The position numbers were made by a program, and so were the translations under genes. The notes below the pieces were generated by a model. That model saw only the letters and a list, made by a program, of their open reading frames with translations, was not told the origin of the DNA and searched no databases. A stretch of 42,052 bases of DNA. Source: Terriglobia bacterium (GTDB lineage: Bacteria; Acidobacteriota; Terriglobia; UBA7540). How positions within the stretch are numbered: position 1 is the first letter of the stretch; each line of letters begins with the position of its first letter. Positions 6,838-31,471 of the stretch are shown in pieces. The stretch lies in assembly GCA_030040315.1 (NCBI GenBank), contig JASHTY010000331.1:1-42052 (forward strand), read 5' to 3'.

Positions 6838-8364
6838 ATGAAACGGTCAATTAAGTTCCTGCTTGCAGCAGCCATGCTAATGCTGTTTGGCTTGGCAACG
6901 TCCGCTCCGGCCCAGATGGTGTTTCATCCGCTTGCGACCGGCACCCCGGCCACGCAAACCCAGCAAATTGATCGCGCGATTTCCTCTCGAGGGTTAACGC
7001 CGATTGTGAACGGTGTGGGCAAGATATATTCTCCCGCGTCTAGCGTCGCAGTATCCGGAAGTGCCGGAGTGAGCGCCCACACGTCGGTAGAGGTTTTTGT
7101 CCCCGATGGATTTCAGCCTGACCAGGTGACCCCTCCATATTCCGGGTATGGTTTCAATACACCGGCCTCGATTGCCTGCATATACGGAGCAGTTACATTC
7201 GTCTTAGGGAATGGATACTGCAATCCCAACGATAATCTCGCTAACGCCTCCGGTGGGAGCGGGACGATCGCAATCGTCGATGCCTACGACGATCCCTGGA
7301 TCATGGATGACCTGAATATGTTCTCCTCGCAATTTGGTCTTCCTTTAGTCACTTCATCTACATTTCAAATGGTTTATGCCAGTGGTACGGAGCCTGCGTT
7401 TGACACAGCGGATGATGGCGGATGGGAGCTTGAGGAGTCACTGGACGTTGAATGGGCGCACGCCATGGCGCCCAGCGCCAAGATCGTGCTGGTTGAGGCT
7501 GCTGACAACACCCTTGCAAATCTGCTGCCGGCAGTCACGGTCGCCAGCAACTTTGTCGAGTGCGGCGCGTCGACCTGCCCGAATGGAGGAAGCGGCAAAG
7601 GCGAAGTCATTATGAGCTGGGGAACAAGCGAGTTTGCCGGCGAAGCAAGCGACGATTCGAACTTTACGACGGCAAACGTTGTCTATTTCGCCGCGGCCGG
7701 GGATTCCCCGGGAGTCAGCTGGCCCTGTTCTTCCGTAAACGTGGTTTGCGTCGGTGGCACGACATACTCTCGTTTCCCTGTTGGTACACCCAGCAACGCA
7801 GGGGGAGCGTTCTCGCAGTATGCGCTTGGCGGCGAGGTCCAGGGGACTTGGAGCTATGGTGGCGGCGGCTCTAGCTCAATTGAAAGTCTCCCAGGTTACC
7901 AGAGCCCCATTGCAAGTACTCTCGCGACTCTCAACAGTAGTACGACTACGACGGTGCCTATTCTTGGCTACCCGGTGGGCGTAGGTATTTCTACTACCCT
8001 TCGGGCCGTTCCGGACGTCTCTGCAAATGCTAATCCCTATACCGGGTATTGGGTCTTTGACAGCTTCCAGTTCGCGCTTCTGGGTTACGTACCACCTGCT
8101 TCCGACGCGCCCGACGCCGGTGGGTGGTGGATCGTTGGAGGCACGAGCGCTGCCAACAATATCATTGCCGGGATGGCGAACCTGGCAGGCAATTTCCGGG
8201 CCTCGAGCGCCGCTGAGCTGACGGTCATGTACACCAGCTTGGGTTCCTTTAATGACGTGGTTTTCGGCACCGGGCAATGTGGTCCTTACCAGGGCTACAC
8301 AGCTAACGTGGGCTGGGACCCATGCACTGGCATTGGTGTGCCGTTGGGGCTAGGCGGTCTATAG
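6838..8364 (+). CDS. Secreted S53 family (sedolisin/kumamolisin-like) serine-carboxyl peptidase lacking a full pro-domain
   Basis: An exported acid-type protease of 508 residues. Residues 1-26 are a signal peptide (KRSIKFLLAAAMLMLFGLA, cleavage after APA). The catalytic triad is visible: Glu199 and Asp203 in EESLDVEWAHAMAP, and Ser437 in GGTSAAN; Asp289 in AAAGDSP fits the oxyanion residue. FNDVVFG (~471-477) and WDPCTGIG (~493-500) fit the C-terminal calcium site. Family members normally carry a ~150-190-residue activation pro-domain; here only ~80 residues lie between the signal and the catalytic core, so it is short or pro-less. The usual Pro after the GTS motif is Asn. A GGAGGAGG ribosome site sits 9 bases upstream and a terminator follows, so it is monocistronic. 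Confidence 0.92.
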   Translation: MKRSIKFLLAAAMLMLFGLATSAPAQMVFHPLATGTPATQTQQIDRAISSRGLTPIVNGVGKIYSPASSVAVSGSAGVSAHTSVEVFVPDGFQPDQVTPPYSGYGFNTPASIACIYGAVTFVLGNGYCNPNDNLANASGGSGTIAIVDAYDDPWIMDDLNMFSSQFGLPLVTSSTFQMVYASGTEPAFDTADDGGWELEESLDVEWAHAMAPSAKIVLVEAADNTLANLLPAVTVASNFVECGASTCPNGGSGKGEVIMSWGTSEFAGEASDDSNFTTANVVYFAAAGDSPGVSWPCSSVNVVCVGGTTYSRFPVGTPSNAGGAFSQYALGGEVQGTWSYGGGGSSSIESLPGYQSPIASTLATLNSSTTTTVPILGYPVGVGISTTLRAVPDVSANANPYTGYWVFDSFQFALLGYVPPASDAPDAGGWWIVGGTSAANNIIAGMANLAGNFRASSAAELTVMYTSLGSFNDVVFGTGQCGPYQGYTANVGWDPCTGIGVPLGLGGL

Positions 8365-13155: not shown

Positions 13156-14895
13156 CTAATCGAAGCTCTTCAAAGCTGTGCGCAACTGAAGCTTCTTCGG
13201 ATAAAAACTAATTTGCAGGGAGAAGACATTATCACTTTGTTTGCCATTGGCGAGGAATTGGAATGACCAGCGCTCGTGCTGGACGAGGGCGGAGATTTCC
13301 ATGTCTTTATGGACCAGCCAATCAGCTTTGATGCGCACGGAATCCTGGGCGCCGCCATTGGGAATCAGCTCCTTGGCGACGCGATGCTCATCCCATTCAA
13401 TTTCCAGTCGTTGTCGAGGCGTGTACCAATACGTCGTGCTGGTATCAAATGTCTTTCCCCATCTGCCTACCGCATTTCCCATCAGGAAACCTTTGTTGAA
13501 GAACGCTGGATGGTAAAAGAAACTCGCATATGCCTGTTCATGTTGCTGGCCGGTAGTGGCAAGCTCAACGCGAAAATCAAATTTCTGGAGATGTGGGAGC
13601 TGCGAAAGATAGAGCCCCGGATTGTACATGGCCCGTCCGGGATTCACCAATGGACTCAAATCGTCTTCGCTCAAATCATCCGTGTAGATGGTTGCCCACT
13701 TGCGCACGAAGGGCAGGCGGTAGGACATATCCATCCCGGATTGGCGCTTTCCCGGAAAATCCTGTGGATTGGCCGTGCAGCAAATGTCGGTTGTACTAAA
13801 ATATGTGGCGAACAGGTTGTGGAACGTAAAGGGAATTCCCTGGCCGAAAGCTTCAGTGGAACGCGAAAAACCGATTTCCAGATTTCGAGTGGGTTTAAGC
13901 AATGCCTTCTCTCCATGGACATATGGCCCGCGGGGGTACTCATTTCCAGAGAGCCTGCCGAAGTACGCTTGCACTCTCACCGGGCCCATAAATGACAGGA
14001 ATCCCGGCAAGACGATGGGTTGGACCTGATTGATCCTCAGCATGAGAATCGGATCAACATTGTCGCTGCCAAGCATTGGACCAAGGGTTCCAGGGCCCCA
14101 CCAAAGGGATTGCTTCCCAAATGTTACGTCGTATATGGAGATTCGCATGCCCACATAGGTATCCAGCAGGTCGAAGCGATCGGTCGCCGGAGTCGCCTGC
14201 GAATTGATTGCCACGGGGGTGCCATCCAGATTTGCGATAAAAGCTTGCTGTGACGGCGTCAAGCCGGCATACGCCGGCGAATATTGATATTCGCCACGCA
14301 CGTAGGCAAAGAATCGGCCACGTATTGCGTGGGCTGAAAATCCTGAGACGTTGTTGAAGCCCGTATTGAACGGCCGCCCGAAATCGTCGGTAAGGGTTTG
14401 CCCAAAGTGGTCGCCGTCGCGCAGCGGCGTGCCGGAAATCCCGAGAGCGCGGGTGTAGACGGATTCCACTTCCGCCTGGGGCGGGGAGGTTCCGTTCAAG
14501 GCTTCGACCTCCAAACTGAATTCCTGGTCCAAGGCTTCAAAGAGTGACTGGGCGTTGTTATTCCCGGTCGCCCCACTTTCCATGTTGTCTTCCGCGTCCA
14601 ATACCAATTGGGCGCATTGCAATCTTGTCCACGGTCTCAGGCCGACGAACTGTTTGTTAATGACTCCCAATCCCGCCAGACGATCAAAAGCCGCATAGAC
14701 CCAGCTATCCATGGGGACATAGGTGGACCCTGGCGAGTCATCGGCAAACGTCTCGGAGTAGGGAATTACGAAGAGCGCAAGGCCGAGTAAGCAAATTACG
14801 GCCCACGCGGCTCTGCGACCGATTGATATCTCAGGTGCCGATTTATTCTTTGAACAGACTGGAGGCAGGTGCAAGCGAATTCGGGGGTTATTCAC
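13156..14895 (-). CDS. Wzi-like capsule assembly outer-membrane beta-barrel protein
   Basis: A 579-residue exported protein. The N-terminus has a basic stretch, then a hydrophobic segment (AAWAVICLLGLALFVIPYSETFA) as signal peptide. Mature residues ~55-110 (YVPMDSWVYAAFDRLAGLG...RPWTRLQCAQLV) form the conserved helical start of acidobacterial 'capsule assembly Wzi' proteins. The rest is beta-rich with alternating aromatic residues and ends in strand-like LQISFYPKKLQLRTALKSFD, fitting an outer-membrane barrel. Wzi anchors or organises capsular polysaccharide at the surface. The start is GTG without a clear ribosome site. It is the last gene of the minus-strand glycan locus, with the IS256 relic just beyond, and supports export of a surface-held polymer. 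Confidence 0.83.
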   Translation of the reverse strand: MNNPRIRLHLPPVCSKNKSAPEISIGRRAAWAVICLLGLALFVIPYSETFADDSPGSTYVPMDSWVYAAFDRLAGLGVINKQFVGLRPWTRLQCAQLVLDAEDNMESGATGNNNAQSLFEALDQEFSLEVEALNGTSPPQAEVESVYTRALGISGTPLRDGDHFGQTLTDDFGRPFNTGFNNVSGFSAHAIRGRFFAYVRGEYQYSPAYAGLTPSQQAFIANLDGTPVAINSQATPATDRFDLLDTYVGMRISIYDVTFGKQSLWWGPGTLGPMLGSDNVDPILMLRINQVQPIVLPGFLSFMGPVRVQAYFGRLSGNEYPRGPYVHGEKALLKPTRNLEIGFSRSTEAFGQGIPFTFHNLFATYFSTTDICCTANPQDFPGKRQSGMDMSYRLPFVRKWATIYTDDLSEDDLSPLVNPGRAMYNPGLYLSQLPHLQKFDFRVELATTGQQHEQAYASFFYHPAFFNKGFLMGNAVGRWGKTFDTSTTYWYTPRQRLEIEWDEHRVAKELIPNGGAQDSVRIKADWLVHKDMEISALVQHERWSFQFLANGKQSDNVFSLQISFYPKKLQLRTALKSFD

Positions 14896-15093: not shown

Positions 15094-15789
15094 TCAGGAG
15101 AGTCCGGGCCACTCACTTTGGGCTGCCTCATAGCTTTCCAGAGTGCCAATATCCCGATGATATTCGGTGATCACGTGCGCGTACATTCGATTGGCAAGCA
15201 TCGGCAGGACATCGTGGCCCAGATCAGCCGGGGATTTTTCAGGTATGCTCTCCAGTAATTGCGGACGCGCGAGCATGATCCCCCCGAAAGCCAGATTGGC
15301 CGGCGGGTGCTGAGGCTTCTCAATGAATTGCTCGACCACGCCCCCTCTGCCTAGGAGAACGATGCCGGACCGCTGCGGGTCGGGGACGGGGCAAACACCG
15401 AGCGTCGCGAGGCGCTTGTTCTGCTCGTGAAATTCTGCCATTCGCGCAAGATTGGTATTGGTGAGGATGTCGGCGTAGAATACCCAGAACGATGGTTCAG
15501 ATTTCACCCATTCACGATTTGCGCGCAAGGTCCCCGCGCTGCCCAGCAAAACGGGCTCCTCAAAGAGCCGTACGCAGATTTCGAGGGAGCTTCTTGCCAG
15601 GAACTCGCGAACGGACTGCGAATGTGAGTGAAGATTCAGCAGGACTTCGTCGATGCCGTTTCGACGGCATAAATCCAACCAGATGGCTAGGAGGGGAACA
15701 CCCCTGATCGGCACAAGACACTTCGGGATTCGGTCGGTTACCGGGCGTAAGCGAGTACCTTTGCCAGCAGCCAACAGAAACGCCTTCAA
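15094..15789 (-). CDS. hddC: Sugar-1-phosphate nucleotidyltransferase, likely D-glycero-alpha-D-manno-heptose 1-phosphate guanylyltransferase
   Basis: A 231-residue nucleotidyltransferase. The N-terminus has the signature AAGKGTRLRPVTDRIPKCLVPI, with the GXGTRxRPxT...PK motif, and FYADIL has the metal-binding Asp. Short single-domain enzymes like this include HddC, RmlA-like and mannose-1-phosphate guanylyltransferases. The HddC call rests on context: the preceding genes encode a GmhA-like isomerase, a transaldolase and an HddA-type kinase, the other steps of GDP-D-glycero-alpha-D-manno-heptose synthesis. The start is TTG, with AAGGG 7 bases upstream overlapping the stop region of the isomerase gene 4 bases away, so the two are coupled. 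Sequence alone cannot decide the base (GTP or another NTP). Confidence 0.75.
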   Translation of the reverse strand: MKAFLLAAGKGTRLRPVTDRIPKCLVPIRGVPLLAIWLDLCRRNGIDEVLLNLHSHSQSVREFLARSSLEICVRLFEEPVLLGSAGTLRANREWVKSEPSFWVFYADILTNTNLARMAEFHEQNKRLATLGVCPVPDPQRSGIVLLGRGGVVEQFIEKPQHPPANLAFGGIMLARPQLLESIPEKSPADLGHDVLPMLANRMYAHVITEYHRDIGTLESYEAAQSEWPGLS

Positions 15790-15793
15790 ACTA

Positions 15794-16417
15794 TTACCCT
15801 TTGACTCGATTCCCGTCTGAGGATGATGTCGATTCCCACTTCATTTGCGAGACGCGAACTCGCGGATGGGAAACCAGTAGATGCCAAACAAGCGCTTGGA
15901 AGCTTTCCGTATGCGGAGTTATATTTTCCGGATTCACCACAGGAATTATTACGCATGCATCCGCTATCTGCGCAGTATAACCACCATCACGCCCCACAAT
16001 GCCGCAAATCGGCGCGCCCACTTCCCGGGCGTATTGGAGAGCGCGAACCAGGTTGGCACTGATGTTGCGATTCAGGTCACCGCCACCCACAGAGAAGACC
16101 AGAATCATGTCCTGCGCCTTCACCCGGCTGCCTCGCAGCCAATTGGCATACGAGGTTTCCCATCCGTCGTCGTTGATGCGGGCCGTAAGTTCCGAGACGT
16201 TGTCAGCGGGAGAATAAGCTTCGATGCCTGCGATCTTTCGGAAGTCGTTGACGGCGTGAGAGGCATGTCCGGCACCGCCACCCACGCCGAGGATAAATAG
16301 CCTTCCGCTCCGTTCACGCAAGCTCACCAGCAGATCCACCATGCGCTCGATGGCATGAAGGTTGAGTTGTTGGAGAATCAGCGAGGTTTCAGCGATGTAG
16401 CTCTTTGCATAATCCAA
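15794..16417 (-). CDS. gmhA: SIS-domain isomerase, likely D-sedoheptulose 7-phosphate isomerase
   Basis: A 207-residue single-SIS protein. It has FILGVGGGAGHASHAVNDF (phosphosugar-binding loop), ILVFSVGGGDLN and VNPENITPHTESFQALVWHLL, where the ITPHTESFQ block resembles the GmhA active-site segment. GmhA converts sedoheptulose 7-phosphate to D-glycero-D-manno-heptose 7-phosphate, the first step of both ADP- and GDP-heptose routes. DiaA-like SIS proteins look similar, but location beside hddA- and hddC-like genes favours GmhA. The start is TTG with GGAGG 9 bases upstream. Next gene begins 4 bases after its stop. GmhA is usually ~192 residues, so length fits. Confidence 0.8.
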   Translation of the reverse strand: MDYAKSYIAETSLILQQLNLHAIERMVDLLVSLRERSGRLFILGVGGGAGHASHAVNDFRKIAGIEAYSPADNVSELTARINDDGWETSYANWLRGSRVKAQDMILVFSVGGGDLNRNISANLVRALQYAREVGAPICGIVGRDGGYTAQIADACVIIPVVNPENITPHTESFQALVWHLLVSHPRVRVSQMKWESTSSSDGNRVKG

Positions 16418-16571
16418 GCTATGCGGCCTCCGAGCGTTTGTTCAGGAATACACGCGCCAAGACATGGTGGATCTCAAATTGACTACACGAACGCGATGAA
16501 GACCTCATGCCATGGAGGAGCAGGGAGTCCACTGTGCCAGAAGCCATCCGGCGCCGGGGAGCCCGTGGGGG

Positions 16572-17354
16572 TTAGAGTTGGTAGCCTGCTTTGCACGCGT
16601 CGCGATAAAACATTTCCACCGTCTCGCGCGAATATTCAACAAGGTCCTTTCCGATCAACTCGAGCTTCTTGAGAATGTCAGAAGTCACGGTGATGATGTG
16701 GCAACCGATTGCGTCGGCCTGAAAGATATTGAGCAGCTCGCGGGGGCTGGCCCATATGAGCTCCAGGTTGGGATACGGGCGCAGGAGTTCGACGGCTGCG
16801 GCCATTAGGGGCACAGGGTCGCGACCAGTATCTGCAATACGTCCTGCGAATACTGAGATCTTGGCCTCTGGCCCATCCGCCAGGCACTCGCTCGCTTGGC
16901 GGACCTGCTGCAACGTCAGGAGTGCGGTGACATTTACGCGTACTCCGGCGCGCGCCAAGCGTTTGAGCAGTTCACCGCAAAACTCGCCCCTGGTAGTGGT
17001 GATTGGGATTTTCACCAGAACGTTTTCCCCCCAGGACGCAATCTCTGCCGCCTGCCGTTCCATCTCTTCAGCATCGTCGGCACAGACTTCAAAGGAGACA
17101 GGCCGATCGGGAATCCGCTGAAGAATATCGAGTGCAAACGCTTTGTAGTCAGAGACCCCTGATTTTCGCATCAGTGTGGGATTGGTCGTGAAGCCGGCGA
17201 TAAGACGGTTGGCATGCATTTCGAGCATGGTGGGGCGGTCAGCGCCATCGGCGTAAATTTTCACGGTCAACCGCAGGGGGGCCCGCTTCTCTGACTTTTC
17301 TACATGATCGAGACCCGACGGCGTTTGAGCGTGCGATCCATACAATATTGGCAT
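16572..17354 (-). CDS. Transaldolase / fructose-6-phosphate aldolase family protein
   Basis: A small transaldolase of about 260 residues with a (beta/alpha)8 fold. VKIYADGAD gives the first-strand Asp, GFTTNPTLM the conserved NPT motif, and NVLVKIPIT the Schiff-base Lys in the VKIP motif; SVFAGRIADTG is the usual FxGRI block. The family exchanges dihydroxyacetone units between sugar phosphates, e.g. making sedoheptulose 7-phosphate, the substrate of the GmhA-like enzyme encoded next. I infer that supply role; fructose-6-phosphate aldolase activity is the alternative. The ATG at 17354 is chosen over the track's TTG (17360) because GGAGG lies 9 bases before it and only 3 before the TTG. A 154-bp gap precedes the isomerase gene. 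Confidence 0.85.
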   Translation of the reverse strand: MPILYGSHAQTPSGLDHVEKSEKRAPLRLTVKIYADGADRPTMLEMHANRLIAGFTTNPTLMRKSGVSDYKAFALDILQRIPDRPVSFEVCADDAEEMERQAAEIASWGENVLVKIPITTTRGEFCGELLKRLARAGVRVNVTALLTLQQVRQASECLADGPEAKISVFAGRIADTGRDPVPLMAAAVELLRPYPNLELIWASPRELLNIFQADAIGCHIITVTSDILKKLELIGKDLVEYSRETVEMFYRDACKAGYQL

Positions 17355-17507
17355 GATCAATTTCCTCCAATGCGAGGGGCGGATTATAGTTCCAAAATTA
17401 CGGCTTCGCAGGGCCTGGCTCGCTCCAAGCCTTACGTTTCCATGATCAGCGCGGGGTGCGCTTAAGGGCGTGGGTGCGGATTATGCCCATCCACGGTGCG
17501 CGAGTTA

Positions 17508-18578
17508 TCATGTGACAAGTCCTGCGAGTGCTGCACGTGCCTGTTCCCGATGGTTTTGCCGCTGGATATGTGCCAATCGGCCGTCGCGAGAAACCACGTC
17601 GAAGATTACTTTGCTGCCTTCGAATTCGAAGCGGAAGTTCAATTCGCGCAACCCGGCTATCCTCATCGCATGGCGCAGTTGCGTCGTATTCTCCTCACAG
17701 TAAAGGGTCAGGAAGCCGCCGCCACCGGCGCCGGAAATCTTGCCACCGATAGCTCCGTGGCGCTTGGCCAGTTCATACCAAGCATCTATCTGCGGATTGG
17801 TAATGCCCTCGGAAAGCCGCTTCTTCGTTTGCCAATGGACATCCATTAATTCACCAAACCGGCGCAGGTTTCCATCTACAATCGCGGCACAAGATTCAAT
17901 TCCAATATCTTTTATCTCCCGCAGGCTCGCGACTACCTTTTTGTCATTTCGTTTGGTCGCCGAATCCTGCTTATGTAAGATGGCGGAAGCGTCTCGCTCG
18001 TCATGCGTGTAAAACATCAACAAGTTATGCTCGAGGGCTTGTAGTATTTCGGAGTCGAGTCCCAGCCGGGTTACATTGACGTTGCCGTCGCGGGCGATTT
18101 CCAGCATGGTCAGCCCGCCAAACGCTGCCATATATTGGTCCTGTTTGCCAATTGGCTTCCCCAACACTTCGAGTTCGATGTGACAGGCTTCCTCGGCAAG
18201 CTGCTGCGGCCCGACAGGGCTTTGTGTCAAGGCATGCATGGCGTTGAGCAATCCAACCAAGTAGGCACTGGAAGAGCCTAAACCAGTTCCGGCAGGGATG
18301 TCGGCGATGGAAACGATTTCAACGCCCCGTGAAATATCAAAATGACGCAACGCCTCACGCGCCAATGTGTGTTCAACCTGGTCCACATGATCCACAAGCT
18401 CTGTCTTTGAATACTTCACACGAACCTTGTCGTCAAGTATTGGCGTGTTTACGTTCAGATACATGTACTTGTCGACGCCAACGGAAAGTATAAATCCGCC
18501 ATGGTCGCGATAAAAGGAGGGAAGGTCCGTTCCACCTCCTCCAAGCGTTACGCGGAAGGGAGTCCGGGTGATAATCAT
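17508..18578 (-). CDS. hddA: GHMP kinase, likely D-glycero-alpha-D-manno-heptose 7-phosphate kinase
   Basis: A 356-residue GHMP-family kinase. It begins IITRTPFRVTLGGGGTDLPSFY, the substrate-binding start typical of HddA and of fucokinase-type heptose kinases, then PAGTGLGSSSA (95-105), the ATP-binding motif 2, and GGKISGAGGGGFLTLYC, motif 3. HddA phosphorylates D-glycero-D-manno-heptose 7-phosphate at C1 in the alpha configuration, leading to GDP-heptose used in S-layer glycans, O-antigens and capsules. The ATG has AGGAG 5-6 bases upstream. Neighbours (transaldolase, GmhA-like, HddC-like) agree with the assignment. A galactokinase-like or fucokinase role is less likely. Confidence 0.87.
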   Translation of the reverse strand: MIITRTPFRVTLGGGGTDLPSFYRDHGGFILSVGVDKYMYLNVNTPILDDKVRVKYSKTELVDHVDQVEHTLAREALRHFDISRGVEIVSIADIPAGTGLGSSSAYLVGLLNAMHALTQSPVGPQQLAEEACHIELEVLGKPIGKQDQYMAAFGGLTMLEIARDGNVNVTRLGLDSEILQALEHNLLMFYTHDERDASAILHKQDSATKRNDKKVVASLREIKDIGIESCAAIVDGNLRRFGELMDVHWQTKKRLSEGITNPQIDAWYELAKRHGAIGGKISGAGGGGFLTLYCEENTTQLRHAMRIAGLRELNFRFEFEGSKVIFDVVSRDGRLAHIQRQNHREQARAALAGLVT

Positions 18579-18633: not shown

Positions 18634-19590
18634 CTAAGCCGTTTTGACCTGATTGGTTTGAACTACTTGAAGTACACGGTCCTTAATGTATTGAACAGAT
18701 CGTCGCAAACCCTCGTGGATATCGATCTTTGGTTCCCACCCAAGTTTACGGCCAGATGAAATATCCGCCAGTGTCACTTGCGCTTCGCCCGGCAAATCTG
18801 CCTTGTAGATTGGCCGGAGCCCGGTTTGCAGCAATTCCTCAATGAGCCGATAAATTTCATTAATAGAAAAATTTACGCCTGTGCCCACGTTATAGATGCC
18901 TCCATTTGAGCGCGGGTCTTTAAGAAGTGTCAAGTGGAAATCATTGACATCGTCCACATAGATAAAATCCCGCCGCTTTTCGCCGGTTCCATAGATGATA
19001 GGAGCCTCGCCACGCAGCATTCGAATGATGAATGCGCTCATGACCGGCGGGACCACACGCCGCCAGTCCTGCGCGGGGCCATAAACATTGAAGTACCGGA
19101 CGATGGTCAAATTCATGCTGTAAAGATCGCGATAACTCTCGCAGAAGGTACAGCCGCCATGCTTGCTGGCCGCGTAGACACCGATCGGCCGAACCTTGTC
19201 TTCGCGGGTAGGAAATTCATGGATTCCTTCGTACTCGGCAGAGGTGTCGGCGTAAATGAACTTACCAACTTTTGCCTGCCGTGCGGCTTCCAGAATGTTA
19301 AGAGTTCCAACCGCGTTTATTTGCGCCGCATCAAGCGGATTTGCCAGGCAATCGGTCAGTGAGTTCTTCGCAGCCAAATGAAAAACCGCGTCTGCCCCCT
19401 GGAGCAGGGAATAGACCTCCTTGTTGCAAATATCTGTCTTATGAAAATCGACGCGCGCGTCAACATTCTCGATCGTTCCGGATACTAAGTTGTCTATACC
19501 TACAACGGAATAACCTCGGTTGAGCAGGTGCATAGCCAAATTGCTGCCAATGAATCCGGCAACACCCGTCACGATCACTTTCTTCTGCAT
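18634..19590 (-). CDS. Extended-SDR NAD-dependent sugar epimerase/dehydratase
   Basis: A 318-residue nucleotide-sugar enzyme. The N-terminus IVTGVAGFIGSNLAMHLL is the NAD-binding GxxGxxG motif; GIDNLVSG ends strand 2; DTSAEYEG carries the catalytic Ser; YAASKHGG gives YxxxK. IYGTGEKRRDFIYVDDV is the conserved nucleotide-sugar binding part shared by UDP-glucose 4-epimerase-like enzymes. The reaction could be a C4 or C5 epimerisation or a reduction of a 4-keto intermediate; which one cannot be read here. It lies directly upstream of the GHMP kinase gene (55-bp gap), so it may act on the GDP-heptose product or on another sugar donor for the repeat unit. Confidence 0.85.
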   Translation of the reverse strand: MQKKVIVTGVAGFIGSNLAMHLLNRGYSVVGIDNLVSGTIENVDARVDFHKTDICNKEVYSLLQGADAVFHLAAKNSLTDCLANPLDAAQINAVGTLNILEAARQAKVGKFIYADTSAEYEGIHEFPTREDKVRPIGVYAASKHGGCTFCESYRDLYSMNLTIVRYFNVYGPAQDWRRVVPPVMSAFIIRMLRGEAPIIYGTGEKRRDFIYVDDVNDFHLTLLKDPRSNGGIYNVGTGVNFSINEIYRLIEELLQTGLRPIYKADLPGEAQVTLADISSGRKLGWEPKIDIHEGLRRSVQYIKDRVLQVVQTNQVKTA

Positions 19591-19652: not shown

Positions 19653-21167
19653 TTAGAAAGCGCCTTCGGCGCGCAGGACTTTCCAGAAGGTCCTGATGAT
19701 AATCCACAAGTCCAACCATATGGTCCAATGATCGATGTAGAACATATCCATTTTAATTTTTTCCTCATAGGTAGTCATCTGCCGACCCGTGACTTGCCAA
19801 TACCCGGTCAGGCCGGGTTTAACTGAAAGCAACTTTGGTAGTAACTGACCGTACCGCTCGGCCTGCGGTTGGGTAATGGTTCTGGGGCCCACCAAGCTTA
19901 TGTCACCCCGCAAGATACTGAAGAATGAGGGGAACTCGTCGACACTGTACTTGCGGAGAACACGTCCGATGCGAGTAACGCGCGGATCCCGATGAAGCTT
20001 AAACTTTAACTCAAACTGTCGCCGTAGCTCTCGATTTTTTTCCAATACCTGATCTGCATCGACGCGCATGGTTCGGAACTTCAGGTAGTGGTGAGTCTTC
20101 CTGTCCTGCCCGATATACGGGCTGCGATAGAAGATCGGCCCGCCGTCCTCCAGCTTGATCAGCAGTCCCACACCAGGAAGAACAAGCAGAGTCATCAAGC
20201 TGCCTACAATCCCGGCAATGATGTCGATGCACGATTTTGCTGTGGCTCTTAACCGTCGCGACCAAACCGGGGTTGCGTAGAATCGGAAGAATCCAGAAAA
20301 ATCGTCCAGTTCGAAATTAAACTCCGAAGTGGCAAACAGGTCGGAGTAGACCTCCACGTCTACACCCCGAGCCTTTGAGCGGTGAAGGATTTCGCGTACC
20401 CATTCGTGTGAACCAGGAGTGGTGCTGGGAAGGCTGACCACCACCAATTGCGGACTAAGCTTATCGACGGCGTCTTCCCAGCGGGCGAGAGCGTCGGATC
20501 GCGCGCGAGCACACGAAGAAGCGGGATATCTCTCGCTCGGTTCGGACGCAGGAATCACGCCAACTACTCGATACCCTTGATGCCGCTGGACTGCGAGAAG
20601 GTTTTGGAACTCGGCCAGTGTTTCCGTGCTGCCCACCCAAAGAGCTTTCTGTTGTGCCAGTCCCCGCTTCCACAGCATCCCATACAATCCCTTCAGACTC
20701 TGACGGAAGAGGGGAACTATGACCAATGCCAGACCGTACCAGCACACAAACAGATATCGGGAAAATCCCAAGTCCTTGAAGAAGATGAAATTCGCGCAAA
20801 CCAAGGCTAGGAAGGACAGGGAAACGGCTCGAAAGATAATAGCCAGCTCTTTCTCCGGCCTGCGCAGATCGGGATTCTGATACCCCTCCGCCAGATACAA
20901 GACCGCCAGCAGGAAGGGTAGATAGAACCACTGGTACCCGGCGGGACTCATATAAGACCGGGGAATATGAAAGAGCCACTGCATAGCCACCCGGGCAGTT
21001 TCATTTGTTAGCGCGATTGCTGCAGCATCGCAGGCCAGGAAAAGCAGGCGCTTGACGCCGCTTCGGCTCAGCGCGTCGAGAAAGCTCTCCCTGGGGACTC
21101 TCGCCTCCGCCACTGCGGCGAGGTCTGCCCGTCCCGCCTCGACCTCATTCACCTGAATAGTGCCCAT
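19653..21167 (-). CDS. Exopolysaccharide-initiating polyprenyl glycosylphosphotransferase (WbaP/WcaJ-type)
   Basis: A ~504-residue membrane enzyme that moves a sugar 1-phosphate from a nucleotide sugar to undecaprenyl phosphate, the first step of a Wzx/Wzy polymer. Four N-terminal membrane segments (e.g. LPFLLAVLYLAEGY, YLFVCWYGLALVIVPLF) are followed by a Rossmann-like CoA_binding_3 domain (ALWVGSTETLAEF). A re-entrant hydrophobic helix (AGIVGSLMTLLVLPGVGLLIKLE) leads to the catalytic core: GGPIFYRSPYIGQ, LKFRTMRVDA, YSVDEFPSFFSILRGDISLVGPR with the Asp-Glu dyad, and KPGLTGYWQVTGR. The track begins at TTG 21179; I take the ATG at 21167, though a GGAG sits nearer TTG codons at 21176-21179. 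It closely follows the methyltransferase gene at 21186. Confidence 0.93.
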   Translation of the reverse strand: MGTIQVNEVEAGRADLAAVAEARVPRESFLDALSRSGVKRLLFLACDAAAIALTNETARVAMQWLFHIPRSYMSPAGYQWFYLPFLLAVLYLAEGYQNPDLRRPEKELAIIFRAVSLSFLALVCANFIFFKDLGFSRYLFVCWYGLALVIVPLFRQSLKGLYGMLWKRGLAQQKALWVGSTETLAEFQNLLAVQRHQGYRVVGVIPASEPSERYPASSCARARSDALARWEDAVDKLSPQLVVVSLPSTTPGSHEWVREILHRSKARGVDVEVYSDLFATSEFNFELDDFSGFFRFYATPVWSRRLRATAKSCIDIIAGIVGSLMTLLVLPGVGLLIKLEDGGPIFYRSPYIGQDRKTHHYLKFRTMRVDADQVLEKNRELRRQFELKFKLHRDPRVTRIGRVLRKYSVDEFPSFFSILRGDISLVGPRTITQPQAERYGQLLPKLLSVKPGLTGYWQVTGRQMTTYEEKIKMDMFYIDHWTIWLDLWIIIRTFWKVLRAEGAF

Positions 21168-21185
21168 ATTCAGCAACAATCTCCA

Positions 21186-23568: not shown

Positions 23569-25110
23569 TCACGCGCGGGCTGTTCGGATTTTCTCCACAA
23601 GCGCTGATGTAGAGATGCCGTGCCGTATGGGGACCCGGCCTATGATTCCTCCATAGCTCTTCACGAATTCTGCGCCGACTACTTGTGACTCCAGATATTG
23701 GTCGCCTTTCACCAGCACTTCCGGCCGAATGCCATGAAGGAGGTTCATGGGGTCCGATTCCTCAAATATCACGACGTAGTCCACGCAGCCCAGGGTGGCG
23801 ATCGCATAAGCGCGATCTTCGGCAGGGACGATGGGGCGTCCCTCGCCTTTCAACTGCTTGACCGAGGCATCGCTGTTTATCGCCACGATCAAGACATCGC
23901 CGAGCTTTTTGGCCTCGCGCAGAAGATGCATGTGCCCAACGTGAAGGAGGTCGAAGCAGCCGTTCGTAAACACAACCTTCTTTTGCTCCTGCCGCAAACT
24001 TTCGGTGATCAGGGTCAATTCTTCAAGCGTTCGAACTTTTGCGTCGGCTGAAAAGTGGCGAAGGCCCAACTCTCGTTCCACTTCAAATGGGTGCACAGCA
24101 GCCGCTCCGGCTTTCCCCACGGCGACCCCTGCGGCGAGGTTCCCGAATTGCGCGGCCAACGCATAGTTGGCGCCGGAACAAGCAGCCAGCGAGAAGGCCG
24201 CCAGCAGCGTATCGCCGGCCCCGGTTACATCGAAGACCTCGCGCGCACTGGTCGGGAAGTGCTGGAAGCCGTGACAATCTACGAGGCTAACGCCTTCCGC
24301 ACCGCGGGTAACCAACAGCGCATCGAGGCACAAATCCTTGACCTGACGCTGTACGAGTTCATCCCGTCGAGCCTCCGTCGTGCTCTCGAACCGGGAGAAA
24401 GAAATCCCCATCGCCGCCTCAGCTTCTAGCGCGTTCGGGGTCAGAACGGAGGCTCCCCGATATCGGCTCCAGTCCTTGCCCTTGGGATCGACGAAAACGG
24501 GTTTCCCCGCTGATCGCGCCATCTCAATGAGTTTCTGAAGAAAAGCGGGCGGCAAAGCCCCTTTGGCATAGTCCGAAATCACAGTCCCTTGCACATGACC
24601 CATCACGCCAGCGGCGAACTCCAGTATTTGGGCAGCGGATTCTGAGGTTATTGGGTGGCAAGTTTCCTCATCCACCCGGAGCACCTGTTGTTGGCCGCTA
24701 AATTGATATCGCCCCTCCGGCTGTCCCGGGTGGACCGCCACCACGCGGGTTTTGAGCGTAGTTTTGCGGCCTTGCTCCCGGATGACTCGCAGCTTTTGGC
24801 AGGAACGAACCGCACGCAGCTCTTGCTCCAATAACGCTCCAATTTCATCATCGCCTACTATCGCCGCACAGCAAATCTCGGCACCGAGGCTAGCGACGTT
24901 GCGGACAACATTGCCCGCGCCGCCCAACGACTGCCGCGTCTGCCGGGCCGAGATTACCGGCGTTGGCGATTCCGGAGAAATACGGTTCGCCTCGCCGTAG
25001 ATGGTTCGGTCCAACATAAAGTCACCGACCAGCATTAGGCGGCACCCAGAAATCGACTGCAGCAGTGGCGCAAGCGATTGGGCTTCAAGCGACATCGAAG
25101 AATGCGACAC
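23569..25110 (-). CDS. hldE: Bifunctional heptose 7-phosphate kinase / heptose 1-phosphate adenylyltransferase
   Basis: A 513-residue two-domain enzyme of ADP-heptose synthesis. The N-domain is a ribokinase/PfkB fold: LMLVGDFMLDRTIYGEANRISPESPTPV near the start, SLGGAGNVVRN (61-71), and DVTGAGD (294-300) with the catalytic Asp. The C-domain is a nucleotidyltransferase: VVFTNGCFDLLHVGHMHLL (379-397) with the HxGH motif, and EGRPIVPAEDRA. Full-length HldE is ~475-515 residues, so it is intact. It would make ADP-D-glycero-beta-D-manno-heptose, given a GmhB phosphatase, which is not in this window. The start is GTG with AAGGA 3 bases upstream. It lies 6 bases after the GT9 gene, which may use the product. 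Confidence 0.95.
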   Translation of the reverse strand: MSHSSMSLEAQSLAPLLQSISGCRLMLVGDFMLDRTIYGEANRISPESPTPVISARQTRQSLGGAGNVVRNVASLGAEICCAAIVGDDEIGALLEQELRAVRSCQKLRVIREQGRKTTLKTRVVAVHPGQPEGRYQFSGQQQVLRVDEETCHPITSESAAQILEFAAGVMGHVQGTVISDYAKGALPPAFLQKLIEMARSAGKPVFVDPKGKDWSRYRGASVLTPNALEAEAAMGISFSRFESTTEARRDELVQRQVKDLCLDALLVTRGAEGVSLVDCHGFQHFPTSAREVFDVTGAGDTLLAAFSLAACSGANYALAAQFGNLAAGVAVGKAGAAAVHPFEVERELGLRHFSADAKVRTLEELTLITESLRQEQKKVVFTNGCFDLLHVGHMHLLREAKKLGDVLIVAINSDASVKQLKGEGRPIVPAEDRAYAIATLGCVDYVVIFEESDPMNLLHGIRPEVLVKGDQYLESQVVGAEFVKSYGGIIGRVPIRHGISTSALVEKIRTARA

Positions 25111-25116
25111 GGTTCC

Positions 25117-26313
25117 TTATCCAGTGAGCAGGGTTTTGTGGAGTTTTGAATTTCTCGTGGCCAGAAGGCCTGCAAGCCGTTCTTCCAGGGCCGCGACCAC
25201 TCTGGAGACCGATAAATCGGTCAAACAGTAGGGCTGGTCGAATTTGCATGAGTCGCCGCAAGGCCGGCAGGGGAAGCCTTCAAGCATGACGACTGAGTGG
25301 TGGGGCCCATAGGGTGCCCACCACTTGGGCTCGGTGCAACCGAAAACCGCCACCACCGGCGTTCCTACGCCCGCGGCAATATGCATGGGGCCGCCATCAT
25401 TGCAAAGCAACAAATCGCATTTTTGCAATAAGGCCATTAACATCCCAATGTCCGGTCTGACCCGCGTGTGAGGATTCGGAAGCGGCAAATCCCAACCATA
25501 CCCGTCGGGCTGCGCGAAGGCAAGAAATCGCACTGGGAATTTTTTCGCCACCGCCTCGGCAACCGCGGCAAATTTATCTAGTCCCCAGTAGCGCACCGGA
25601 TCGCCCGCGCCGGGATGAATTCCCACAACCAACTCTTCCTTATCCAGGCCCTCTGCAGCCCAAAAATCTTCGGCGGCACCCTTGTCCCCTTCGCTAAGTT
25701 GCAGCATCACCCGATCCAAGGCCGGTTTCCCTCCCAAATACCCCACAAGCTGTGTTAACAAGTCGGCATGGTGGGGATGGGCGAGGTCAGCTTTGACGAG
25801 ATCCGTCAAACAGAACCCGCCACCGCCATGATTAAACCCTAAACGCCTCCGAGCGCCCGAGCAGAAAAGCAGCAGGTTGTTGCGGATGTCCGCGTGGCCA
25901 TCAATTGCCAGGTCAAAGCGCCTTCGCCGGAGATCTCGCAGCAGGCCCAGGAATTCACTCGACAGATACCTTTTGGGATGATACTTGCCCGTCCGCCGAG
26001 ACCATGGGATCGCCGCCGTCACGATTTCATCTACCCAGGGGCAATTCTCAAGGATCTTGCGCGTATCCGGATGAACCAGGATCGTTATACGGGCCTCGGG
26101 GAAGCACTGACGCAGACTAGCAAGGGCCGGCGTGGTCAACACCAAATCCCCTAACCTCCAGACATTCACCCAAAGGATGCGCTTTGACGCCTTCAGGTCT
26201 TCTGCCCGAAAAGCACGACGGCGCAAAAGGTTCGGCAGGAAGAGCACTGAACCCAGCGCTTCGAACAACGGGATGAGCTTTTGTTTTTTTGCTGTTGCCT
26301 TCAGATACGGCAT
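25117..26313 (-). CDS. GT9-family glycosyltransferase (heptosyltransferase-like)
   Basis: A ~398-residue GT-B enzyme of the WaaC/WaaF/WaaQ family. The N-domain has RILWVNVWRLGDLVLTTPALASLR, the GD-LxTTP signature; the C-domain has VVGIHPGAGDPVRYWG (donor phosphate loop) and CDLLLCNDGGPMHIAAGVGTPVVAVFGCTEP, the D-x-GPMH motif. Heptosyltransferases use ADP-heptose, and the next gene encodes HldE, so a heptose-adding step is the natural inference. The ATG at 26313 (AGGG 6 bases upstream) is preferred over the TTG at 26343. It overlaps the end of the upstream methyltransferase gene by 13 bases, so translation is coupled. A run of Cys residues (CRPCGDSC) near the C-terminus is unexplained. Confidence 0.9.
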   Translation of the reverse strand: MPYLKATAKKQKLIPLFEALGSVLFLPNLLRRRAFRAEDLKASKRILWVNVWRLGDLVLTTPALASLRQCFPEARITILVHPDTRKILENCPWVDEIVTAAIPWSRRTGKYHPKRYLSSEFLGLLRDLRRRRFDLAIDGHADIRNNLLLFCSGARRRLGFNHGGGGFCLTDLVKADLAHPHHADLLTQLVGYLGGKPALDRVMLQLSEGDKGAAEDFWAAEGLDKEELVVGIHPGAGDPVRYWGLDKFAAVAEAVAKKFPVRFLAFAQPDGYGWDLPLPNPHTRVRPDIGMLMALLQKCDLLLCNDGGPMHIAAGVGTPVVAVFGCTEPKWWAPYGPHHSVVMLEGFPCRPCGDSCKFDQPYCLTDLSVSRVVAALEERLAGLLATRNSKLHKTLLTG

Positions 26314-27245
26314 TGCAAACCCTGAGAATTTCCTTTCTCCCAAGCCAACATCAAGTCACCAGACAAATCACGTTCAGAATAAAGGCTGCCGTAACTGCCG
26401 GGCACGGCCGATATACCTTCACGCGTGCTATTCCAGGCAGTTGACAGAATGGGGTTCAGGCAGCCTAGCAAAGCACGAGCGTTCTGCCCGAGATGCGCGT
26501 AAAGTCTGGGTATCAATTGAGTCCCGCGGCTGACGCTGACCGCTCGACATAAGACAGCGTTGGGGGCAGCCTTCAGGAGTCGTTCCTGCGCCGCGGCGGG
26601 CGTGTAGATTCTCTGAAAAAAGTGCTTGTTTCCGTCCTGGGTTTCCTGCGCGGCTCCTTCCAACCCGATGCGCTCCTGCTCGACATAGCTTTGCCCCAGG
26701 GGGACCGTCACCAGGAGAATGCCTCCGGGCTTCAGAACCCGCAGCATTTCCCGAACGCTATGGGAATCGCCTGCCTCCCCCCCAACATGCTCGATCAGGG
26801 ACATCGAATACACGACGTCAAATTCTTCCTGGGAATACTTCAGCGAGCGCGCGTCCTGGGCCGAAAAGACGGCCTTGCCTCTTGCGCGGCCTTCTATGGA
26901 CCTCCACAGGATTCGGGCCTCGTCAACCGCCGGCTCATAGATGTCGGTCAGGTGAATCTCGATGTCCAGGTGATAGGCTAGATAAAGGCCCATGCACTTG
27001 GGGCTGCCTACGTCCAGGGCTTTGATTTGGCGAGCCGGGTTGAGGCGCTCAAGATGCTCCCGCAGGCCTCTTTCCACAAACTGATACTCGGGAAATCGAG
27101 TGTACGAGTTGATCGGTTGCAAGATTTTGCCGACTGTCTTTCTTGCCCCCAGTCGAAATCCATTCTTGAGGATATTCGCCACGCCAAGCCGAAGCCCAAA
27201 ACCATAATATCGGGCTTCGTCGTGCCGGAGGATCTTAAACGGCAT
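26301..27245 (-). CDS. SAM methyltransferase (Methyltransf_11-like)
   Basis: About 314 residues from the ATG at 27245 (MPFKILRHDEARYYGFG). The track's GTG start adds 39 unlikely residues. The core is ALDVGSPKCMGLYLAYH (an altered motif I, with SPK in place of the glycine-rich loop), IHLTDIYEP, FDVVYSMSLIEHVGG and LKPGGILLVTVPLGQ. The modified loop means SAM binding is likely but not typical. Its 3' end overlaps the GT9 gene by 13 bases. Pieces of a second copy survive as a relic at 27445-27552, so this gene has been duplicated. Probable role: methylation of a sugar or lipid-linked chain in the glycan pathway. Confidence 0.8.
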   Translation of the reverse strand: MPFKILRHDEARYYGFGLRLGVANILKNGFRLGARKTVGKILQPINSYTRFPEYQFVERGLREHLERLNPARQIKALDVGSPKCMGLYLAYHLDIEIHLTDIYEPAVDEARILWRSIEGRARGKAVFSAQDARSLKYSQEEFDVVYSMSLIEHVGGEAGDSHSVREMLRVLKPGGILLVTVPLGQSYVEQERIGLEGAAQETQDGNKHFFQRIYTPAAAQERLLKAAPNAVLCRAVSVSRGTQLIPRLYAHLGQNARALLGCLNPILSTAWNSTREGISAVPGSYGSLYSERDLSGDLMLAWEKGNSQGLQCRI

Positions 27246-27444
27246 CGTCTTCCGCGAGAGGAAGTATGGAAATTCCCTGCTGTGCAGTTTCCTTCTTCTC
27301 CAAAATAAGTGAACTACTCCCTCAACCCCGACTCTGTCTGATTCACGCCGGCAATCTCCCACTCGGGTAGGGAAAGCTGGCCTAGTCCCTAATTGGTGTC
27401 ATTTACAATCAAAACCTTTCCTGTTGCCAACATCTCATTGAACG

Positions 27445-27552
27445 CGGAACCCTGACATTTCCTTTTCTCCCAAGCCAATATCAGGTCACCCTCGCGGCTG
27501 ACGCTGACCGCTCCATTTCTTGCAGCCCTCCACAATATTCGGGCCTCCTCAA
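27445..27552 (-). pseudogene. Three-block relic of a second copy of the 26301 methyltransferase gene
   Basis: In ~105 bp, three collinear pieces match the neighbouring gene: EARILWR (27527-27552, matching 26911-26936), AVSVSR (27493-27513, identical over 21 bp to 26525-26545), and GDLILAWEK (27451-27490, matching 26323-26359). The sequence between these blocks is deleted. The reading frame continues through all three, so the track shows a spurious 107-residue ORF (27389-27712) fused to antisense-like sequence of the upstream gene. No function can be expected. It lies directly at the 3' end of the gene at 27549. Confidence 0.8.
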
Positions 27553-28421
27553 GCAGCGCTCTTGTCTGGCAAACTTTCATTGGTGGGGCTGCGGTCCGCC
27601 CTCGAGAGGTAAAAGACACCTCCCGAAATCCCAAGGTGGTACGAAAACCTGAAAAACAGATGTCGCAGAGTCCCATGGTGAGAGTGGCGAAGACGGGGTT
27701 TCCACTCCTCAATGGACCCGAATCCCGCGCTCCGGATCACGCGTTCCAACGAGCGTCGCTCGAAGTAATAAAAATGAGTCGGATCGGCATACTGCTGCCA
27801 GCCCGATCTCTGCAATCTTCCGCGCACAGAATTAACGTTTGGCGTCGACACCAGCAGCCACCCACCCGGACGCAGTAGCGATCGCAATTGCCGCAAATCC
27901 GACCAAGGCTCGCGCAGGTGCTCGATCACGTTCCACAAAATTACCAGATCAAATACCCCCGCGGAACTGAGGCTCAACAACTCACCCACATTCCTGTACG
28001 TTCTCTTGCCGAGCTTATTAGTTGCTTCCTGGTTAGCCGCGGGGTCCTGCTCAATGCCTTCCGCCTCAAACCCGAATTCACGGGCAACCGCCAAGAGATT
28101 GCCAACTCCACATCCATAATCGAGGAGGCGGCCGCCCTCAATCTCTCCTATTCGAGTGCGCAATTGGCTAAAGACTTGGCGCAGCATGTCATTAGGGGTG
28201 CTCGGGAACTGCAACGTGGAAGCTTTCCCGTCGGAGGGATAATAAACATCCCTATATGCCTGCGACAAGTCCTCCTCATTCAGTTGCTCAGACGCGAATT
28301 GCAAGCCGCAATCTGCGCGTGAGCACTTAAGGACCTCCGTGTGAGGCAGTTTCAAATGATGGAAGGCTTCAGTTCCGCAACAAGGGCACGGCCTCATTTC
28401 GCTGTCGACTCCAGTTGTCAC
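27549..28421 (-). CDS. SAM methyltransferase with N-terminal Cys-rich ribbon (Methyltransf_23-like)
   Basis: The N-terminus has CPCCGTEAF...CSRADCGLQF, a small Cys ribbon, followed by the class I core: GRLLDYGCGVGNLLAVAREFGF (motif I), AEGIEQDP, FDLVILWNVIEHLREPWSDL and RPGGWLLVSTPNVNS. The HFYYFERRSLERVIRSAGF block is typical of glycan-cluster methyltransferases. The track starts at GTG 28451; I prefer GTG 28421, since GGAGAGG lies 5-6 bases before it. An ATG at 28397 is another option. About 290 residues. The stop codon abuts the relic of the next methyltransferase gene, which suggests the 3' end was reshaped by recombination. Substrate unknown. Confidence 0.83.
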   Translation of the reverse strand: MTTGVDSEMRPCPCCGTEAFHHLKLPHTEVLKCSRADCGLQFASEQLNEEDLSQAYRDVYYPSDGKASTLQFPSTPNDMLRQVFSQLRTRIGEIEGGRLLDYGCGVGNLLAVAREFGFEAEGIEQDPAANQEATNKLGKRTYRNVGELLSLSSAGVFDLVILWNVIEHLREPWSDLRQLRSLLRPGGWLLVSTPNVNSVRGRLQRSGWQQYADPTHFYYFERRSLERVIRSAGFGSIEEWKPRLRHSHHGTLRHLFFRFSYHLGISGGVFYLSRADRSPTNESLPDKSAA

Positions 28422-28614
28422 AGATGCCTCTCCCACCGCCGCCCTCGCCACACTCCGTCTACCACACCAATATCCACTCGCGTGGGGAGCACGAAGCTTT
28501 CTTGGGACTTGTCGGTGCGGAATTTTGATTTATTCGATGACACCGTCATTATCGCTGATCGTTCTTATCATATCCAGCCGTGCGGCGTGGCGATTGGCCC
28601 GGCGCGGCTGTCTT

Positions 28615-29973
28615 CTAGGCACGTCCAGGGGCGCGAGAGAATACGGCTTCTGGGTGACCCGGGTCCGCAAGGATCCCCGACGCCCTTTCGATTTTTCGCA
28701 TTAACTTTCGATAGGAGAACAGAAGGACGATTGCGACAACAGCATAGCCTGCGACCAGGCTTGTTGCGGCTCCCCGCAACCCCCAGACCTTGATGAAAAC
28801 GAGAGCGCTAACTAAAGCAACCGGAGCAGCAATGGCGTTGCCAACGAGGTCATAGTGGGGCTTTTGCGCAGCGCGCAACACCATGCTGAATCCCGACAAG
28901 AACGCTGTGCACACCGGAACCAACCCCAGCACCGGGATAAGCCAAACGTTAGCGGAGAATTTGCCTCCATAGAGAATATGCTCGATACGCCCAGCGAAGA
29001 CCCACAAAACGATGAAGTAGGTCGCCGCCATGGCAGTCAAGACGAGTGTTGAAAATGCGGCTTTCCTCCGCAGCATATCCATTCGCCCCCTTCCAAAGTC
29101 AGAAGCCATGCTCGGGAGGGCGAGGAGGGACACCGCCGTAACGACCTGTACCATCACGAGGGAGGGGATCTGCATGGCGCGAAGCGCCCCTGCCGCACTT
29201 AGACCAATCATCCCCGCGGCAAGGTAAGTCTGGATCTGGCTTGCCACCGAAAGCAACGTTGTACTGGCGACCAGCCAGCGCCCATAATTCCAGCTTTCAC
29301 GCACTACCGGCATCAGGGGGCATGGGGCTAGAATGCCAGGTTTTAGTATCCCTATCTCTCGAAGGGGCCACAACACGGCAGCAATACTCGAGATACCAAT
29401 CCATATGAAGGCAAAGGCAGGACTTAGCATATTCTCGAAGCGCAGGGCCAACAGCCCCGCCAACATAAGGACGACATAAACGAAGCTCGCTCTCAATGCA
29501 ATGGAAGGCTGCTGGACGACATAGCACATGCGCCTTACCAACCACAGCAGCAGCAAAAACGGCAAAGCAACGGCACTACCCAAGATCGCTAAGACGAGCA
29601 CTCGTTCGACACCCAGCAGGCTCAATCCGCCCGCCACAAGGACCATCAGCCCACTGAGACTCGTAACCACCAGGCCATGGACTTTGAGTTGCGCAATAAA
29701 ATACCCGACCATTCTCTCAGTGTATTTGGCTGGGCCCATGACAGTCATGGGCTCCAGCAGCAATACGGTGTGATAAGCTGCCAGGCAGAGGAAGGTGGCA
29801 AACGCCACGGCGAACGCACCATAGGCATCCGGCGTTAGCCAACGAGCCAGCAGGAGACTTAAGACGAAAGTGGCGCCAGAAATTAAGCCCTGATCCAGAA
29901 TTGAAAACCCGCCGCGAATTCCCCACAGGCGAAGTTGCTCGGGTGTTATTCGCACCACGGAAAAAGTACCCAT
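28615..29973 (-). CDS. Wzx-type polysaccharide flippase (MOP superfamily)
   Basis: A 452-residue membrane protein with 12 or more hydrophobic segments. The N-terminus RGGFSILDQGLISGATFVLSLLLARWLTPDAYGAF is the classic start of Wzx/O-antigen flippases, with the amphipathic first helix and LTPxxYG motif. The rest includes FLSGFSMVLRAAQKPHYDLVGN in the second half, as in RfbX/MurJ-like carriers. It would flip the undecaprenyl-linked repeat unit to the periplasm. Start ATG directly follows the stop of the Wzy-type gene (TAGATG), so the two are translationally linked. The 193 bp before the next gene holds nothing I recognise. Confidence 0.9.
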   Translation of the reverse strand: MGTFSVVRITPEQLRLWGIRGGFSILDQGLISGATFVLSLLLARWLTPDAYGAFAVAFATFLCLAAYHTVLLLEPMTVMGPAKYTERMVGYFIAQLKVHGLVVTSLSGLMVLVAGGLSLLGVERVLVLAILGSAVALPFLLLLWLVRRMCYVVQQPSIALRASFVYVVLMLAGLLALRFENMLSPAFAFIWIGISSIAAVLWPLREIGILKPGILAPCPLMPVVRESWNYGRWLVASTTLLSVASQIQTYLAAGMIGLSAAGALRAMQIPSLVMVQVVTAVSLLALPSMASDFGRGRMDMLRRKAAFSTLVLTAMAATYFIVLWVFAGRIEHILYGGKFSANVWLIPVLGLVPVCTAFLSGFSMVLRAAQKPHYDLVGNAIAAPVALVSALVFIKVWGLRGAATSLVAGYAVVAIVLLFSYRKLMRKIERASGILADPGHPEAVFSRAPGRA

Positions 29974-31419: not shown

Positions 31420-31471
31420 GCGAGCGTTGCTCCCCAACACTGACTGTTCATGTGGGCCTCAAGCGTAGGAA

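Follow-up and report, generated by a model that had tools for sequence, protein, structure and literature searches.

A conserved transaldolase-containing nucleotide-sugar cassette in a surface-glycan locus of Acidobacteriota, a candidate route to an activated octose

The established heptose route draws sedoheptulose 7-phosphate (S7P), an ordinary metabolite, from the pentose-phosphate pool and has no transaldolase of its own. To our knowledge, octulose 8-phosphate is not normally present in metabolism. In the biosynthesis of the lincosamide antibiotics lincomycin and celesticetin, according to PMC5854111 (citing Sasaki 2012), the dedicated transaldolase LmbR forms octulose 8-phosphate from ribose 5-phosphate and either fructose 6-phosphate (F6P) or S7P. 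It acts alongside the octulose-8-phosphate isomerase LmbN, the phosphatase LmbK, the guanylyltransferase LmbO and the predicted kinase LmbP (PMC4351081; PMC12945683). Here we describe a gene cassette with its own transaldolase (TAL) in a 42,052-nucleotide stretch from a Terriglobia bacterium (Acidobacteriota; contig JASHTY010000331.1, hereafter the window). The cassette is real and conserved, and with confidence just above even we read it as a dedicated nucleoside diphosphate (NDP)-octose cassette feeding a surface polysaccharide. An earlier sequence-only reading had proposed GDP-heptose as its product and knew of no well-described pathway with a dedicated TAL. Lincosamide octose synthesis is such a pathway (PMC5854111, PMC4351081).

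Kinase, TAL, isomerase and nucleotidyltransferase genes follow one another in a row, as that reading had stated, and all four are open reading frames (ORFs). On the minus strand they are preceded by an epimerase gene, the successive gaps being 55, 147, 154 and 4 bp:

18634..19590, minus strand, NAD-dependent epimerase/dehydratase (PF01370)
17508..18578, minus strand, sugar-phosphate kinase of the GHMP family, HddA/LmbP type (HddA model, 154.6 bits; PDB 3k85, 4usm)
16572..17354, minus strand, transaldolase of the TIGR02134 clade (319.8 bits, residues, tree, AlphaFold2 (AF2) model)
15794..16417, minus strand, SIS-fold ketose/aldose phosphate isomerase of the LmbN-side clade (SIS_2 29.2 bits, tree, loop, AF2 model)
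15094..15789, minus strand, nucleotidyltransferase for NDP-sugar synthesis (PF00483, 117 bits; PDB 8yre, 7x8j)

Among 297 Acidobacteriota genomes, a TIGR02134 TAL scoring over the cut-off is present in 17 and a close relative of the isomerase (at least 50% identity) in 18. All 17 TAL genomes are among the 18 isomerase genomes (P ~1e-26, uncorrected for shared descent), and in the 18th, G095, the isomerase gene adjoins a TAL of another kind (locus L058). The two genes lie within ~1 kb of each other in 14 of the 17 genomes, within ~11 kb in two, and on separate contigs in one (G026). The cassette was found in at least six phyla, with carriers in Acidobacteriota, Anaerolineales (Chloroflexota), Nitrospira (Nitrospirota), Actinomycetota including Acidimicrobiales, Rhizobium and Lawsonia; in Rhizobium jaguaris, Rhizobium sp. 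CB3060 and Lawsonia (plasmid 3) it is plasmid-borne, the Rhizobium replicons being megaplasmids. The association of the TAL with the isomerase and kinase genes thus extends across phyla, beyond this genome, and the 17/17 co-occurrence together with this linkage bears out the proposed functional link between the TAL and the cassette.

The usual order in relatives is kinase, nucleotidyltransferase, isomerase, GmhB-type phosphatase and TAL. The closest named relatives are Terriglobia (Acidobacteriota) metagenome-assembled genomes with 87-88% identity, in which the five-gene order of the window is repeated (L112). Fuller relatives (L044, L045, L051, L054, L072, L071 and others) additionally encode an epimerase, a short-chain dehydrogenase/reductase (SDR), an oxidoreductase of the Gfo/Idh/MocA family and, in most cases, a nucleotide-sugar dehydrogenase; a DegT aminotransferase with 46% identity to LmbS is also present in L044 and L045. 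In lincosamide synthesis, GDP-octose is modified by enzymes of these types, but the tailoring genes are only suggestive of an octose, because the resemblance of the epimerase to LmbM is not specific. The L071 locus, on plasmid 3 of Lawsonia intracellularis, contains the whole cassette with nucleotide-sugar dehydrogenase, SDR and Gfo/Idh/MocA genes, and its genes carry the labels galactokinase, SIS, HAD and transaldolase.

The isomerase, which has a TTG start with GGAGG upstream, had been called GmhA-like. GmhA proteins are recognized by a Ser-Thr-Ser-x-x-Ser phosphate loop (PMC7705670) and catalytic Glu and Gln residues (PMC7705670, PMC5387315). The gmhA equivalog model is the best curated match of the window protein, yet the score is 41.7 bits against a cut-off of 209.45, and the GmhA residues are altered (SVGGGDLNRNIS; E65 replaced by D58 and Gln by E171), with both His kept. 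Its phosphate loop, S109-VGGGDLNRNI-S120, is longer than that of GmhA, and the active-site set is H54/D58/E171/H179. In a tree of 54 isomerases, a branch with 98/98 support separates 27 cassette isomerases, five lincosamide-type Streptomyces proteins and three other TAL-linked proteins from canonical GmhA and the TAL-less isomerases. The GmhA label therefore fails by score and tree, as well as by the loss of the phosphate-loop Thr and the catalytic Gln. Judged by its sequence, the protein is not a canonical GmhA and groups with the LmbN-type isomerases in both clade and lengthened loop, all TAL-linked isomerases falling on this side of the branch. The AF2 model has the GmhA fold (Foldseek; 2i2w and others, ~20% identity); it is of moderate confidence, weak around residues 47-84, and confirms the fold only.

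TAL-linked isomerases have SV(G/H)GG and an insert in place of the STSGNS loop of GmhA, with VGGG in the cassette proteins and VHGG in the lincosamide proteins, whereas TAL-less isomerases retain the short loop. Among well-aligned proteins, a TAL gene lies within the same analysed stretch for 32 of the 35 long-loop isomerases and for none of the 14 with a short loop. Of the three remaining cases, the L155 stretch breaks off ahead of the expected TAL, L096 has a TAL ~10 kb away, and the genome of L108 contains another copy that does have a TAL (L111). Since many of the 35 were found via the TAL, the comparison is fair only for the proteins retrieved by isomerase search, among which a TAL directly accompanies the long loop in 9 of 11 cases (the others being L155 and L096) versus 0 of 14 for the short loop. 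The lengthened loop maps essentially to one branch and so marks one evolutionary event rather than many. The H-D-E-H active site was dropped as an octose marker, since TAL-less isomerases have it too and the loop alone separates the two sets.

The TAL comprises 260 amino acids from an ATG at 17354, with GGAGG ~9 bp upstream (the frame is open to a TTG at 17360), and passes the curated cut-off of TIGR02134 (281.95 bits). Fructose-6-phosphate aldolases (FSAs) have Gln, Ala and Tyr where transaldolases have Glu, Ser and Phe. The residue set of the window TAL, D-N-E-K-T-S-F-R-S-R, is that of transaldolases: a Schiff-base Lys with Asp, Asn and Thr, Glu and Phe at the class-switch positions, and Ser in the donor pocket. 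In the alignment, D9, N31, E62, K88, T116, S140, F142 and R145 are present in every cassette TAL. Class-switch substitutions between the two enzyme types (F178Y, A129S) have been described (PMC3962226), and the title of PDB entry 4xz9 gives E60Q/F132Y at the same class-switch positions. With the FSA model TIGR00875 the protein reaches no more than 77 bits, and a 52-protein tree places it within the 100/100 TIGR02134 clade, apart from the small housekeeping transaldolases and from the LmbR type. Score, residues and tree rule out an FSA, and the protein is, as first read, predicted to be a small transaldolase; it is additional to the housekeeping enzyme. Its AF2 model (predicted local distance difference test score, pLDDT, 82) matches best the transaldolases 1vpx, 3s1u and 9ui2.

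At least three TAL lineages are paired with the long-loop isomerase clade (TIGR02134, the L058/L100 kind, the L097/L099 kind and LmbR), and the occurrence of different lineages in one slot fits a required step with exchangeable enzymes. The LmbR-type TALs (L156:13083-13727 and those of L160, L161 and L165) carry Gln and Leu, a third combination besides the Glu/Phe of transaldolases and the Gln/Tyr of FSAs. On a plasmid of Streptomyces sp. 3211 (L073:10673-13424), a TIGR02134-like TAL gene lies between genes for D-arabinono-1,4-lactone oxidase and hexitol phosphatase, which links this TAL type to a further sugar pathway.

The window proteins all fall short of the curated cut-offs for their heptose families. 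HddA is indeed the best curated match of the kinase, but its 154.6 bits are far below the cut-off of 600, and the enzyme is a putative anomeric kinase of the HddA/LmbP type. The cassette kinases and a single TAL-linked relative make up a clade of their own; they do not join LmbP, and the kinase tree was dropped as support for an octose. The nucleotidyltransferase is correctly named as such, although its HddC-like label is loose: it scores 60.3 bits against an HddC cut-off of 300 and 112 bits with the mannose-1-phosphate guanylyltransferase model, guanylyltransferases being its nearest curated models. The GmhB-type (HAD-IIIA) phosphatase gene is absent from the window operon, where 154 bp separate TAL and isomerase, and likewise from the Terriglobia relatives, in agreement with the sequence-only reading, but it is not missing from the genome, since a GmhB on contig C520 scores 168 bits against the TIGR00213 cut-off of 149.6. 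The epimerase, an orthologue of which (58%) adjoins a transaldolase gene in L042, probably tailors the NDP-sugar. LmbM-like epimerases were rejected as octose-specific support, the cassette epimerase scoring higher with GalE-1 (3ehe, archaeal-type; 269 bits) than with LmbM (218 bits).

For comparison, lincosamide-type loci were assigned by gene content and order in Streptomyces genomes (G328 was assigned to Streptomyces by 11 chaplin matches); these genomes do not include the S. lincolnensis cluster itself. L155 and L156 encode PmbA/TldD, Gfo/Idh/MocA, sugar dehydrogenase, epimerase, isomerase and kinase types in lincosamide order, L155 with an additional ribosomal RNA dimethylase and adenylation-domain protein, and L156 with a DegT aminotransferase and a transaldolase. 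The cassette shares with the lincosamide module (LmbR, N, P, K and O) the same five enzyme types, including the dedicated small TAL, and the isomerases of both have the lengthened phosphate loop and lie on a common 98/98 branch. Many cassettes also have an epimerase, a nucleotide-sugar dehydrogenase and a Gfo/Idh/MocA protein, the types of LmbM, LmbL and LmbZ, the epimerase resemblance being non-specific. In contrast to the Lmb genes, which belong to an antibiotic cluster, the cassette occurs in surface-glycan loci; its kinase lies outside the LmbP group, and its TAL belongs to another clade, with Glu and Phe where LmbR-type loci have Gln and Leu. Three further Streptomyces loci (L160, L161 and L165) have the lincosamide order R-S-O-P-Z-N-M-L-K with divergent proteins (LmbM 56-58%, LmbZ 46-49%), and perhaps specify an uncharacterised octose-containing natural product.

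In the proposed pathway, the TAL would transfer a dihydroxyacetone unit from F6P (or S7P) to an aldose phosphate acceptor. With ribose 5-phosphate, the most likely acceptor, the product would be octulose 8-phosphate, which the LmbN-side isomerase would convert to an aldo-octose 8-phosphate. The GHMP kinase would phosphorylate C1, a GmhB-type phosphatase (encoded within the cassette of most relatives, and at another site in this genome) would remove the 8-phosphate, and the nucleotidyltransferase would produce an NDP-octose, probably GDP-linked. The neighbouring epimerase may modify this product before a glycosyltransferase uses it. Beyond the gene set, linkage, co-occurrence, clades and active-site residues read from the sequences, we infer the acceptor (C5 over C4, hence an octose over a heptose), the nucleotide and the end product. 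An octose is preferred because the isomerase lies on the LmbN side with an altered phosphate loop, and because octulose 8-phosphate is not on hand, so that an octose pathway needs its own transaldolase. The absence of this ketose from ordinary metabolism explains a dedicated TAL better than the local S7P supply suggested at first. The latter is a weak reason: GmhA, GmhB, HldE and an ordinary TAL are encoded separately in the genome (the housekeeping full-length transaldolase is on contig C313), and the TAL-less GmhA-type loci examined cope.

Several observations weigh against an octose. All the transaldolase residues are conserved in the cassette TALs, whereas LmbR-type proteins of lincosamide loci have E to Q and F to L changes. 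In the tree, the closest non-cassette relatives of the cassette TALs are stand-alone genes of Staphylococcus and Treponema, which are presumably S7P-related. The Staphylococcus TIGR02134 protein is 48% identical to the window TAL with identical active-site residues, but its gene has no adjoining isomerase or kinase gene. The cassette kinases are apart from the LmbP clade, in a tree that carries a long-branch warning. The branch leading to the cassette isomerases is long (2.55) and joins the lincosamide LmbN set weakly (94/56), and the substrate could therefore differ. The window cassette lacks GmhB and the dehydrogenase, SDR and Gfo/Idh/MocA tailoring genes of the fuller relatives, and has only its own, different epimerase. 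In 7 of 25 cassette genomes there is no better GmhA homologue, so that the cassette may there have a heptose duty.

The alternative that survives best is the GDP-heptose cassette, in which the TAL would make S7P and the isomerase D-glycero-D-manno- (or gluco-) heptose 7-phosphate, with kinase, phosphatase and nucleotidyltransferase carrying this on to GDP-heptose. We regard this product as probably wrong, given the LmbN-side isomerase with its altered loop, although it keeps about a quarter of the probability because of the ordinary TAL residues in a clade that includes stand-alone genes, the kinases off LmbP and the 7 of 25 genomes without a better GmhA homologue. The cassette resembles the established heptose route in its GmhA-fold isomerase and HddA-type kinase and, in most relatives, in a GmhB-type phosphatase and an HddC-type nucleotidyltransferase; by path, again with the long-branch warning, its kinases are closer to HddA/WcbL than to LmbP, and some loci combine the isomerase and TAL with HldE-like kinase/adenylyltransferase genes. 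It differs from that route in its own TAL and in the missing Thr and Gln of the isomerase. In addition, S7P is already available, TAL-less isomerase loci manage without a TAL, and 18 of the 25 cassette genomes have a separate GmhA-like protein, that of the window genome scoring 181 bits.

Less probable still is another higher or branched NDP-sugar, neither common heptose nor lincosamide-like octose, made from a different TAL acceptor or donor and ketose phosphate. The long isomerase branch and the VGGG loop, unlike the lincosamide VHGG, are consistent with it, as are a nucleotidyltransferase and an epimerase in the window unlike those of most other cassettes, but the enzyme types parallel two known C7/C8 routes step by step, and nothing speaks positively for another acceptor. 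That the TAL is an accessory pentose-phosphate enzyme merely located in the locus is very improbable: TIGR02134 genes do stand alone in Staphylococcus and Treponema and occur in two Actinomycetota genomes that lack a close isomerase, but the 17/17 co-occurrence, the cross-phylum linkage and the replacement by other TAL lineages at the same position strongly disfavour it.

Around the cassette lie, among others, the following genes:

19653..21179, minus strand, polyprenyl-phosphate glycosyl-1-phosphate transferase for glycan initiation, outside the cassette (TIGR03025, 323.8 bits, over the cut-off)
13156..14895, minus strand, Wzi-type capsule assembly protein (PF14052, 325.7 bits)
23569..25110, minus strand, HldE, the ADP-heptose kinase/adenylyltransferase of a separate canonical heptose route (PRK11316, 436 bits; TIGR02199 over the cut-off)

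A WecG-type glycosyltransferase, methyltransferases and an SLBB exporter are also encoded nearby, and together these neighbours identify a surface-glycan locus. For three ORFs of the window (2561-5338, 6838-8364 and 26301-31440) the NCBIfam scan gave no family match, and the first two had no Pfam match either.

A literature search, conducted largely without subscription journals, found no paper in which a transaldolase forms a step in nucleotide-sugar synthesis for a glycan. Coxiella lipopolysaccharide, considered as a published case of the cassette in view of the founding members of TIGR02134, was dropped, as no transaldolase was found in the Coxiella lipopolysaccharide papers. Even with a heptose product, a TAL as a fixed pathway step of glycan loci is undescribed in the papers searched. 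We tentatively propose, at slightly less than even confidence, an undescribed and widespread route that places aldo-octoses into bacterial surface glycans, using a lincomycin-like module found in at least six phyla, for which the lengthened phosphate loop of the isomerase would serve as a sequence marker. If so, the C8-sugar route known from lincosamide antibiotics also contributes to the surface polysaccharides of soil bacteria, symbionts and intracellular bacteria, and many genes labelled GDP-heptose, 'transaldolase', 'SIS domain' or 'galactokinase' would be misassigned.

In four other loci (L046:9001-13956, L050:6098-11590, L099:2077-8392 and L108:6453-10803), the isomerase lies beside HldE-like kinase and cytidylyltransferase-like genes rather than HddA/HddC. 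These kinase and cytidylyltransferase-like genes are separate, with ~24-36% identity to HldE, and three of the four loci have a TAL; the same sugar may be made there in an ADP- or CDP-linked form. In the window itself, positions 31472-32476 hold a further nucleotide-sugar gene of the locus, a member of the GDP_Man_Dehyd family (434 bits).

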